Positions 11,157 to 14,281 of a stretch of 64,000 nt of DNA are shown piece by piece. Positions within the stretch are counted from its first letter, which is position 1, and each line of letters starts with the position of its first letter. Position numbers and translations under genes: made by a program. Under the pieces are notes generated by a model. That model did not search any database. It had not been told where the DNA came from and was given only the letters and a program-made list of their open reading frames with translations. This DNA comes from Thermococcus henrietii (GTDB taxonomy: Archaea; Methanobacteriota_B; Thermococci; Thermococcales; Thermococcaceae), in the NCBI RefSeq assembly GCF_900198835.1, contig NZ_LT900021.1, forward strand, positions 496,001 through 560,000, written 5' to 3'.

Positions 11157-11363
11157 ATGAGGAAGGATTTTGAAAGTGAGATTGTTGACATGCTCCGGGA
11201 GAGGGAGCTCACGGTTGCGTTTCTCACGCGGTTTTTAACGGAGAGGGGCTTTGACGTCACCCGTCAGAGGGTTGAGAGAACGCTGAGGAAGCTCGTGAGC
11301 ATGGGTCTCGTCGAAGCGAGGGTCGGCAACAACGGCAGAAAGCACTACAGGTTGGCACGGTGA
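11157..11363 (+). CDS. Small winged-helix regulator
   Basis: 68 residues, essentially one winged-helix domain. Helices run through EIVDMLRERELTVAFLTRFL; the recognition segment is FDVTRQRVERTLRKLVSMGL; the wing ends VGNNGRKHYRLAR. It lacks an obvious ligand domain. It abuts a second HTH gene (GTGA at the stop) and lies upstream of the DUF1102/SipW cassette, so it may regulate that cassette or its own leader. The GGGAGG site upstream lies in a hairpin. Exact family not recognised. Confidence 0.75.
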   Translation: MRKDFESEIVDMLRERELTVAFLTRFLTERGFDVTRQRVERTLRKLVSMGLVEARVGNNGRKHYRLAR

Positions 11364-11368
11364 TTGCC

Positions 11369-11800
11369 ATGGGAACCTCCTCGGTCATACTCGGAAACAG
11401 CCGGAGGATGCTCCTCATAGAATACCTCCGAAGCTGTGAGGGGAAGGCCGAGCTGAGGGACGTTGTTGAGTTCATAGCCGAGAATGAGGGGAACACTGAC
11501 AGGAAGCACAGGAAGAGCGTCTACGTGAGCCTCGTTCAGACGCATATCCCGAAGCTTGAGCGAGAGGGAGTTATCACATTCAAGCACGGCGTTATCACCC
11601 TCGTTAAGGTCCCGGACGACGTTACGGTTTACATGGAGACTGTAAAGAAGAACGACATAAGCTGGAGTTCGTTCTACATCGGGCTCTCGGTTATGTTCTT
11701 CATAACCGCCCTCTACCTAAACAACCTTCACCTTGCCCTCGCATCGCTGGTTTACGCCGGTGTTGGGGTCATTCACCATAGAAAAATGAGGCGCATCTGA
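11369..11800 (+). CDS. HTH protein with C-terminal membrane segments (DUF7344-like)
   Basis: 143 residues. The N-terminal half looks like a winged helix with an archaeal DUF7344 flavour (SRRMLLIEYLRSC, AEFIAENEGN-type helix, RKHRKSVYVSLVQTHIPKLE, GVITFKHGVITL). The C-terminus carries two short hydrophobic segments (WSSFYIGLSVMFFITALYL, LALASLVYAGVGV), so it may be a membrane-tethered transcription factor. ATG at 11369 is preferred: GGTGAT lies about five bases upstream, while the GTG at 11360 overlaps the previous stop. It is probably cotranscribed with the 68-residue HTH gene. A role in sensing the cell surface is inference. Confidence 0.7.
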   Translation: MGTSSVILGNSRRMLLIEYLRSCEGKAELRDVVEFIAENEGNTDRKHRKSVYVSLVQTHIPKLEREGVITFKHGVITLVKVPDDVTVYMETVKKNDISWSSFYIGLSVMFFITALYLNNLHLALASLVYAGVGVIHHRKMRRI

Positions 11801-11845
11801 GCCTTTTTCTTTGGGTAATCTCCCATTACCGGCCGTTAATCCGAC

Positions 11846-12015
11846 ATTTCATATATACCACAAAGGTCCAATGAATCAGTGAGCAACCCCACGGGGTTGC
11901 AGAGGCACTGCGTTGATTTCACCGTTGCAGTGGTCGTGAGTGTGTCTTGGTTTAGGGATGAACCTTCACTCTCACCGCTGGCTTCTCTACCACAGTGCCT
12001 CCCTAATCCGGAGGC
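11846..12015 (+). promoter_or_regulatory. Promoter and structured, possibly switching, 5' leader of the DUF1102 operon
   Basis: TATA (ATTTCATATATACC, 11846-11859) predicts an RNA start near 11880 and a leader of about 145 bases. The RNA opens with hairpin GCAACCC/GGGTTGC (11883-11900). Two alternative folds then compete. In one, GAGGCACTG (11902-11910) pairs with CAGTGCCTC (11993-12001), closing a domain that also contains CAGTG/CGCTG (11928-11932/11976-11980) and GTGAG/CTCAC (11936-11940/11971-11975). In the other, GCCTCC (11997-12002) pairs with GGAGGC (12010-12015) and hides the ribosome-binding site. The folds share bases 11997-12001, so they exclude each other. Ligand, protein or temperature control is not shown. 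Confidence 0.6.
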
Positions 12016-12023
12016 GAAAAAAG

Positions 12024-12626
12024 ATGAGAAAGAATATTGCCCTTGGAATTTTTGGCCTGTTGGTGGCCTTTGGCCTTGTCTTAGGGGCTGGAGCCAACTT
12101 CAGGGACTACCACGCCAGCAGGAGCGTCCACTGGGATATCGTCAGCGACGATAACGAACTCATTGACCTGACTCCCCTTCAGCCCTACGCGTACATAAAC
12201 AGCGGTGGCGTTCTGGTGGTGGATATCAGTCCGGACAACCCGAACTACCCAGGCTACGGCCAGGGCCTCAGCCCGAACTCGGAGTACAACTTCGACGAGG
12301 TCTTTGAGGTAAGCAACGACCTTTGGGAGAACAACATGAGCATAGTCGTTAGGATTACAAACGCCAACACGGCGATTCAGTTCTACGGCGCCGACCACGA
12401 CGTGCACGACGCCGCGACTGGAGCGATTGTCTACCGCAGTGACATGGCCAAGAACGACGTCTGCTTCACCCTTGGTCCGGGAGAAGCCGCCAAGATAGGT
12501 ATGGACTTCACCGTTGGAAACAACGCGCTCAACACCACTGAGAGCAGCACCATACACATCCAGGCATGGAGGCTCGGCACCGAGCCTGATGAACTCGCAG
12601 GAAAATGTGGACAGCCGGGACAGTGA
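12024..12626 (+). CDS. Secreted DUF1102 protein, possible fibre subunit (first copy)
   Basis: 200 residues. An N-terminal signal sequence (MRKNIALGIFGLLVAFGLVLGAG-type hydrophobic stretch) is followed by ANFRDYHASRSVHWDIVSDD and LIDLTPLQPYAYI. The mature part looks beta-rich and secreted. DUF1102 proteins are encoded beside SipW-type signal peptidases; the start of the mature region resembles TasA/AbpA-type fibre subunits, but that relation is my inference. The ATG at 12024 has GGAGG nine bases upstream; the longer frame from 11940 would begin inside the structured leader. Two cysteines (in DVCFTL and KCGQ) could form a disulphide. It heads an operon with a paralogue, a peptidase and two further exported proteins. 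Confidence 0.82.
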   Translation: MRKNIALGIFGLLVAFGLVLGAGANFRDYHASRSVHWDIVSDDNELIDLTPLQPYAYINSGGVLVVDISPDNPNYPGYGQGLSPNSEYNFDEVFEVSNDLWENNMSIVVRITNANTAIQFYGADHDVHDAATGAIVYRSDMAKNDVCFTLGPGEAAKIGMDFTVGNNALNTTESSTIHIQAWRLGTEPDELAGKCGQPGQ

Positions 12627-12639
12627 GGGGGTGTAAAAG

Positions 12640-13176
12640 ATGAATAAACTGTTTGGATTGGCCTTATTGATGGTTGGAATGCTCCTGGCCGTTGGAGCCG
12701 GAGCCAATTTCAGGTACTACTCTGCCGACAGGCAGGCGAGCTTTACCGTCGTTTCAGACGATAACGAGCTCATTGATTTGACCGCCCTCCAGCCCTACGT
12801 AACCTACGACGCTGGAAAACTCTACGTGGACATAAGCAAGTACAACCCGAACCACCCCGAATACGGCGGTGCTGGAATGAGCCCGAACACGACGTACGTC
12901 TTTGAGGAGATGTTTGAGGTCAGCAACGAGCTGTGGGAGAACAACAACACAGACTACCCGATATGCGTCACCATCACGACCGGAAACGACCATGTGTTAA
13001 TCTTTGCCGGCGACTACGGAAACGAGATTGCCGGACCGGCCCACAACCTCAAGTTCACCGTTGAGCACGGAAGCCCTGTAAAGATTGGCATGATATTCAA
13101 CAACACCAACGTCAGCATGGGCGAGTACCAGTTCCAGATGAACGTAGAGGCTCAGGCTGGTGCATGCGGACAGTGA
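12640..13176 (+). CDS. Secreted DUF1102 protein (second copy)
   Basis: 178 residues, a close paralogue of the gene just upstream: the same signal-peptide-to-mature junction (AGANFRYYSADRQASF), the same VVSDDNELIDLTALQPYVTY block and the same FEEMFEVSNELWENNN block. It has a few N-X-S/T sequons, such as NNT and NVS, that could be glycosylated. The start follows GAGGGGGTG. Only thirteen bases separate it from the first copy and the signal peptidase follows, so coexpression is likely. Two copies suggest major and minor subunits of one structure, but no experiment supports this. Confidence 0.82.
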   Translation: MNKLFGLALLMVGMLLAVGAGANFRYYSADRQASFTVVSDDNELIDLTALQPYVTYDAGKLYVDISKYNPNHPEYGGAGMSPNTTYVFEEMFEVSNELWENNNTDYPICVTITTGNDHVLIFAGDYGNEIAGPAHNLKFTVEHGSPVKIGMIFNNTNVSMGEYQFQMNVEAQAGACGQ

Positions 13177-13222: not shown

Positions 13223-14281
13223 ATGAGAAAACTAATCGAACTCACGTTTGCCATCATCGTTTTCGTTTTCATCACCGGTTCGTTAGTTGGCTTCTTCCTT
13301 GACAGGCCCGTTTTTCTCTCGTACGCTTACTCCAAGAGCATGACCCCCACTATAGACAAAGGTGACCTCTTTTTGATGAACCCATTCGCGAGGAACTTCG
13401 ACGTCGGGGACATAATAGTCTTCCACCGCAGGGATGGCTGGACCGTCCACAGGATATTCGCCGTGACCGAGGAGGGCTTCATAACGAAGGGTGACAACAA
13501 CGTGGCAACGGACCAGCAGGATGGCCTTTACAAGCCCGTTAAAGAATCTGACATCGCCGGAAAGGTCGTGGTTGTCCTCGGCCACCCCCTGGTCATCCGC
13601 GGCGGCGGTGCGTTCATACAGTCCCTTAGGGCAAGGCTGAACAACGTCTACGCCATAGCGTTTCTGCTTCTCGTGGGGGCCTTTCTAACGTTCTCGGGGG
13701 GCTCCAAACGGAAAAGGCGAACTAAATACTACCGAGTCAGTGTTAAGACCCTCTACGCAGTTGTTTCCGTCTTCATAATAGCGGGTTTTCTCTTCGTGAC
13801 GGTGGCATCATGGGGAACTCTCGCATTCACTTACTCATCGACCCTCGCCGGTGGTCAGAGGGAAGGATGGTACCTCCCGGGTTCAACCTTTGAAAAGAAC
13901 CTGAGCGTCCGCAACAACGCGGTTTACCCCTTCTACTACTTCGTGGAGGGGGGCAGTGAGCGGGCGGAACTCCTGGGGCCTAATTTCCTGAGGCTCACCG
14001 GGGGTTCGAGCGCCAACGTCTCGGTTCACGTCACGGTTCCGAAGGACACGCGGATTTACAGGGAAGAGTTCAGCGTGCGCTCGTACCCTGCCATACTGCC
14101 GGCGTCCTTCGTTATCTTCCTGTACTCCCTAAACCCGTACCTGCCGCTGGTCGCCTACGCCCTTCTGCTGTCCGCGGTCCTCTGGGCGTTCTACCGCCTC
14201 GCGGGGATTTCCGAGGGTGACGTCATTAGAATCAGAAAAAGGAGGGGAAGCGTTCTCTCCAAGGTACTCGGAGATGGTTAG
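13223..14281 (+). CDS. Signal peptidase I, SipW/archaeal type, with extra membrane domain
   Basis: 352 residues. An N-terminal membrane helix leads to the catalytic Ser39 in SKSMTPTIDKGD, His76 in TVHRIFAV and Asp91/Asp97 in KGDNNVATD: the Ser-His-Asp set of archaeal/ER-type S26B peptidases, not the Ser-Lys pair of bacterial LepB. After about residue 150 come three more membrane segments and an extracellular beta-rich region (about 210-290), longer than a housekeeping signal peptidase. Lying between DUF1102 genes and a third exported protein, it is probably the dedicated processing enzyme of this cassette. GGGGGAG precedes the ATG. Confidence 0.88.
   Translation: MRKLIELTFAIIVFVFITGSLVGFFLDRPVFLSYAYSKSMTPTIDKGDLFLMNPFARNFDVGDIIVFHRRDGWTVHRIFAVTEEGFITKGDNNVATDQQDGLYKPVKESDIAGKVVVVLGHPLVIRGGGAFIQSLRARLNNVYAIAFLLLVGAFLTFSGGSKRKRRTKYYRVSVKTLYAVVSVFIIAGFLFVTVASWGTLAFTYSSTLAGGQREGWYLPGSTFEKNLSVRNNAVYPFYYFVEGGSERAELLGPNFLRLTGGSSANVSVHVTVPKDTRIYREEFSVRSYPAILPASFVIFLYSLNPYLPLVAYALLLSAVLWAFYRLAGISEGDVIRIRKRRGSVLSKVLGDG

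Follow-up and report, generated by a model that had tools for sequence, protein, structure and literature searches.

A conserved Thermococcus leader with two mutually exclusive helices that may gate translation of a pilus-like operon

Introduction

Bacterial translational riboswitches exchange anti-Shine-Dalgarno (anti-SD) and anti-anti-SD pairings by means of mutually exclusive helices, and RNA thermometers hold the Shine-Dalgarno sequence (SD) in a hairpin that melts with heat. For the Archaea, a 2021 paper (PMC8241225) names the fluoride (crcB) riboswitch of Thermococcus kodakarensis as the only natural riboswitch that is experimentally determined, and cites Speed et al. (2018) for the view that it is thought to act on translation.

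Here we describe a leader that precedes a DUF1102 operon in the 2.16 Mb genome of Thermococcus henrietii; it occupies positions 11880–12024 of the window, the stretch of 64,000 nucleotides that was analysed and to which all coordinates refer. It resembles the T. kodakarensis riboswitch in being a cis-acting structured leader from the same genus, but the gene, sequence and structure are different and there is no match to the Rfam crcB family. With the bacterial translational riboswitches it shares mutually exclusive helices that have the anti-SD strand in common: both a helix that sequesters the SD and an alternative to it, which would compete in the cell, are conserved in 33 leaders. However, this leader is archaeal, and a conserved ligand-binding aptamer between the strands of its long-range helix (P2) is absent. 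Like an RNA thermometer it has its SD in a short hairpin that is predicted to weaken on heating, but it differs in having a second conserved long-range helix that competes for the anti-SD strand. We think it fairly probable, from comparative analysis of the sequences, that this conserved leader of about 140 nt acts in cis and gates how the first pilin gene of a bundling-pilus-like operon is translated.

The operon and the regulated pilin

The leader precedes a gene on the + strand (12024–12626) that encodes a DUF1102 protein (PF06510, 181 bits), and a second DUF1102 gene (12640–13176, +; 186 bits) and a gene for a type I signal peptidase (13223–14281, +) follow. The peptidase scores above the TIGR02228 cut-off and is weakly SipW-like. 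Genes further downstream encode a protein without assignment and a DUF5305 protein.

As modelled with AlphaFold2 (pLDDT 82), the first DUF1102 protein has a fold like that of bundling-pilus subunits. Its top match in the PDB is 7ueg, the bundling pilus subunit of Pyrobaculum calidifontis (Foldseek E 3.4e-5), to chain A of which it aligns with a Z-score of 8.3 and an rmsd of 2.8 Å over 116 residues at 12% identity; the Natrinema Tafi pilus (9p0a) scores Z 6.6, and bacterial FimA is found further down the list. These two pili are the best matches to filament proteins, and the likeness concerns the regulated protein and not the RNA leader. The fold match alone is modest, since immunoglobulin-like folds without any relation to pili reach Z 7 against the same model. 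The content of the operon, with its signal peptidase, lends support to a putative pilus or fibre role. A PDB sequence search with the DUF1102 protein gave no match, and the first gene scores 24 bits against the NCBIfam TafA model (NF052520), below its curated cut-off of 190 bits.

Two helices share one strand of the leader

The SD GGAGGC (12010–12015, +) lies 8 nt 5' of the ATG at 12024 and is complementary to the anti-SD GCCTCC (11997–12002, +), with which it can form a short SD hairpin. All but the last base of the anti-SD also belongs to P2, in which the 5' or anti-anti-SD strand GAGGCACTG (11902–11910, +) is complementary to the 3' strand CAGTGCCTC (11993–12001, +). A preliminary description of this DNA had reported both complementarities, nine nucleotides long in the case of P2, and the overlap of the two helices at 11997–12001; the pairings proved exact to the nucleotide and the overlap real. 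The hairpin that it placed at the predicted 5' end is likewise present as GCAACCC-CACG-GGGTTGC (P0; 11883–11900, +). The strands of P2 enclose an insert (11911–11992, +) that carries lineage-specific helices and is 82 nt long here. The extra helices that had been noted inside this domain do occur in this genome, albeit not universally, the insert measuring 44–95 nt among relatives. One local helix, CACTGC (11906–11911, +) with GCAGTG (11927–11932, +), competes with P2 in the minimum-energy fold; it too is not universal among relatives.

Among 2000 dinucleotide-shuffled versions of the leader, a perfect 9-nt complement with its strands separated by 50 nt or more appeared 23 times (∼1%), GCCTCC just 5' of the SD 18 times (∼1%), and the two features jointly in none. 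The two-helix arrangement in this leader is not a product of chance. The SD hairpin alone is unremarkable, as the bare palindrome GCCTCC-N3-12-GGAGGC has five sites in the genome compared with three for a control. The leader folds 11 kcal/mol better than shuffled sequences (z = -3.0), with one of 200 shuffles as good.

A search of Rfam 15 with 11880–12024 returned no family at the gathering threshold, and relaxing the limit to E values of up to 10 gave only chance matches to unrelated human families. The leader would work much as a translational riboswitch or a thermometer does but falls within no described class; the preliminary description knew of none with this arrangement. Several other readings of the region were tried and rejected. 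Control by a leader peptide finds no upstream open reading frame common to the leaders, and an N-terminal extension of the pilin, or an upstream frame in register with 12024, is open only in some close relatives, the frame being lost in others. An intrinsic terminator or transcription attenuator is not indicated, the hairpin being followed by GAAAAAAG and no run of U on the + strand, and there is no Rfam match to an H/ACA or C/D guide RNA.

Promoter and predicted transcript start

A TATA box is present at 11852–11857 (+), with a predicted transcript start at ∼11880–11883. In all 33 leaders TATAT is found 128–190 nt 5' of the start codon, and the distance from the TATA box to P0 is nearly constant (27–35 nt, usually 31), while that from the box to the start codon varies between 130 and 186 nt. 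The 5' edge of P0 is therefore the predicted beginning of the transcript. A start downstream of 11910, named in the preliminary description as a refuting condition, is unlikely on these grounds.

A repeat, GGTAAT-5-ATTACC followed by GTTAA (11814–11839, +), is proximal to the promoter and outside the RNA. Just 5' of the TATA box, almost every DUF1102 operon in the family, whether of type A or of type B as defined below, has a GGTAA/TTACC inverted repeat with a further GTAA or GTTAA (L002–L030 and L139–L188, besides the window). This repeat is probably an operator, perhaps for the product of one of the upstream neighbors, a DUF7344 gene (11360–11800) and a small winged-helix-like gene (11157–11363).

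Conservation and covariation of the helices

All nine P2 pairs are standard in 23 of the 33 leaders and at least eight in every one, and the SD hairpin has six Watson-Crick pairs in 31 leaders and five in the other two. The SD GGAGGC is identical throughout, spaced 6–8 nt from the start codon, and the loop of its hairpin is 3–7 nt long. In an alignment of 31 leaders (A1), 96.8% of P2 cells are paired, compared with 94.4% in shuffled alignments and 35–57% when the pairing is slid by one to three columns; the covariation score is 0.204 against 0.161, and none of 500 shuffles was as high by either measure. Eight P2 cells are altered on both sides (2.4 in shuffles), and three pairs show such changes, a number equalled by 20 of 500 shuffles, all of these shuffle controls ignoring the kinship of the leaders.

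Changes were also counted on the pilin gene tree, where each count may be inflated by up to one by the automatic rule that misplaced P2 in L019. The most variable P2 pair, U36-A121 in A1 numbering, undergoes about nine changes of state (UA-UG-CG), and C35-G122 undergoes four (CG-UG-UA); a position that is A or G opposite a fixed U changes seven times. Full double changes in P2 are confined to few lineages. The three core pairs (GGC/GCC) are invariant and, because they never vary, prove nothing. The ribosome fixes the SD, so that the SD hairpin cannot covary, and the pairs of this hairpin hardly vary. P0 is paired by rule in 32 of the 33 leaders, with two inner pairs that swap among AT, GT and GC (six and four changes on the gene tree); similar hairpins occur at the equivalent place in other genera. 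Compensatory changes in orthologous leaders, which had been set beforehand as a test, are thus present for both P2 and the 5' hairpin.

All 33 leaders have U at 12000, opposite a P2 partner that is G in about two-thirds of them and A in about one-third. At 12002, the last position of the anti-SD and outside P2, 29 of 31 aligned leaders have C. P2 alone would accept a C opposite G at the former position, and the constancy of both residues fits a second duty, pairing with the SD. Conversely, the GRGG of the P2 5' strand is conserved, yet takes no part in the SD hairpin. No other single argument for the importance of both helices is as strong as this dual constraint on the shared strand, read from the alignment. 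Among the aligned leaders P2 and the SD hairpin are mutually exclusive and both conserved, and P2 and P0 covary. Within the enclosed insert there are no universally conserved residues except UUG and CCAC next to P2.

Distribution in Thermococcus and other genera

Genomes of the genus were divided by their PF06510 matches into type A, with two high-scoring copies (35 genomes), and type B, whose copies score lower and mostly number three or four. The 61 genomes of the genus seem to carry one operon type or the other, rarely both, as if either could serve a single function.

The covariance model made from the 31 leaders of A1 places the leader 5' of the DUF1102 operon in 34 of the 61 Thermococcus genomes, with one strong copy in each. 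These make up all but one (G033) of the 35 genomes with a type A operon. All but one of the leaders found were already known before the model was built, and the result is therefore a census and not an independent discovery. The model found no further copies in this genome and no convincing leader among 33 genomes of five other genera of the family. A weak hit at E 0.08 in the other genera, and another at E 0.04 beside the strong copy in one of the 34 genomes, were treated as chance.

Leaders in the other genera are shorter, the SD lying ∼35–65 nt from the start predicted by the TATA box. They have a hairpin close to that start and show no clear SD switch. In one other genus (L148, L149, L166–L168) the 5' hairpin GTGCCTC..GGGGCAC contains a GCCTC that could pair with the SD GGAGGC ∼30 nt 3' of it, a match that is lost in L167 and L168. 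Two divergent leaders, L139 and L157, appear by eye to have their own SD-complementary strands, and folding gave no clear case in either, the wrong SD having been used for L139. Archaeoglobaceae MAGs (L043–L046, L048) encode DUF1102 relatives with 54–65% identity and lack the leader.

The type B leaders of other Thermococcus genomes have an SD without a preceding anti-SD. Eleven of them (L158, L161, L162, L165, L175, L177, L179–L182, L184) are 60–80 nt long and by eye begin with a kink-turn-like hairpin, with RUGAUG, RUGAAG or RUGACG on one strand and YGA on the other; in relatives L160, L183 and L185–L188, UA replaces GA. The usual target of L7Ae is a kink turn, and this hairpin is a possible L7Ae site.

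Predicted folding energies

Constrained folding of the 33 leaders places the SD-hidden state below the SD-free state by 4.2 ± 2.3 kcal/mol at 37°C. At 85°C, using extrapolated energies, the hidden state is favored by 1.7 ± 1.3 kcal/mol; the two states are then within 2 kcal/mol in 18 of the 33 leaders, and the hidden state is favored in 31. Natural inserts, compared with shuffled ones, stabilize both states (in 30 and 28 of 33 leaders at 37°C) without shifting the balance between them. The fold of lowest energy for this leader contains the SD hairpin, and P2 is not the predicted ground state, because its 5' strand pairs locally through the CACTGC/GCAGTG helix.

The SD of this leader is paired with a predicted probability of 0.99 at 37°C and 0.86 at 85°C, compared with medians of 0.69 and 0.46 over 54 open reading frames of the window. 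A paired SD alone is not special, the ordinary median at 37°C being already so high. With another fragment of this leader the SD hairpin has a probability of 0.49 at 85°C, and among leaders this probability varies from 0.06 to 0.94.

Discussion

We propose that the leader controls translation through access to the SD. With CAGTGCCTCC paired to the SD, in the hairpin at 11997–12015, translation would be off; with CAGTGCCTCC paired to the upstream anti-anti-SD strand in P2, the SD would be free and translation on, while P0 would cap the 5' end of the transcript. The most likely default is the hidden SD, with release on formation of P2, which could be favored by forming first during transcription, by heat, or by a protein; we infer a hidden default and a trigger that tips the balance. 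A trigger acting on the switch helices (temperature, the order of folding during transcription, or an RNA-binding protein) is likelier than a metabolite bound by the insert, because the insert is variable in length and unconserved. The preliminary description had suggested a riboswitch, a thermosensor or a protein-controlled leader. A leader that controls SD access is well supported by the covariation and the spacing of the TATA box and P0, whereas none of these three inputs is established. Each of the three is a sub-case of translational gating that names a trigger, and our confidence in each overlaps with that in the gating itself.

A protein that binds the RNA and holds either P2 or the SD hairpin, possibly by way of P0, is somewhat unlikely as the specific explanation. 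The conservation and covariation of P0, the hairpins at equivalent places in other genera, and the kink-turn-like hairpins of the sister type B operon, also at an equivalent place and of the kind that L7Ae usually binds, are all consistent with it, but neither a kink turn nor any other recognised protein site is present in this leader itself.

We regard it as unlikely that the leader is an RNA thermometer, in which an SD hairpin closed when cool opens, or yields to P2, near the growth optimum, so that pili are made when hot and no ligand is needed. On heating from 37 to 85°C the mean gap between the SD-free and SD-hidden states narrows from 4.2 to 1.7 kcal/mol, and at 85°C the two states lie within 2 kcal/mol of each other in 18 of 33 leaders. 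This is compatible with a thermometer, as are switch strands that stay fixed while the sequence of the insert varies freely. However, heating weakens any GC-rich hairpin, the leaders differ widely in the predicted state of the SD hairpin at 85°C (0.06 to 0.94, as above), and a P2 that is conserved and covaries would be superfluous for a simple thermometer.

It is rather improbable that the structure is passive, with hairpins that protect the 5' end or fix a low rate of translation and a P2 that is a by-product without any switching. Hairpins resembling P0 do occur without a switch in other genera and most predictions are dominated by the SD-hidden state, although the 5' strand of P2, conserved and covarying in 33 leaders with no part in the SD hairpin, would then go unexplained.

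That the leader is a metabolite riboswitch of a new class is quite improbable. A long-range helix with an anti-SD and an anti-anti-SD is the architecture of a translational riboswitch, and the one natural riboswitch that the 2021 paper names as tested in the Archaea (PMC8241225) is from T. kodakarensis. Against this, no Rfam family matches even at permissive thresholds, the enclosed domain of 44–95 nt has no universally conserved core except for the UUG and CCAC next to P2, and control of a pilin points to no obvious ligand. Very improbable indeed is the notion that a transcription factor recognizes the repeats in the DNA, as can happen with inverted repeats, or that a conserved upstream open reading frame controls the operon: G·U pairs are so common in P2 that it is better taken as an RNA helix than a DNA repeat, the spacing varies by 50 nt, and the repeats lie within the predicted transcript.

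Returning to translational gating by exchange of the two helices, we tentatively suggest, at a little under even confidence, that the leader represents a regulatory RNA of a new archaeal class: a bistable switch of translation, conserved in Thermococcus and lacking a conserved aptamer, through which a physical or protein signal turns the operon for a surface pilus on or off. Keyword searches of the main texts of Thermococcales transcriptome and non-coding RNA papers, including those on T. kodakarensis and on T. onnurineus start sites, gave no passage on the leader, and the open literature searched on DUF1102, TafA fimbriae and Thermococcus contained nothing relevant to it. The leader is probably a built-in on/off control of pilus making that is without description in the sources searched.

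Experimental evidence for archaeal RNA switches is nearly absent, the 2021 paper (PMC8241225) naming a single natural riboswitch as experimentally determined. This leader is widely conserved in a genus with working genetics, which makes switching by SD exchange at 80–90°C directly testable, and it would also allow a test of how hyperthermophiles control their pili.
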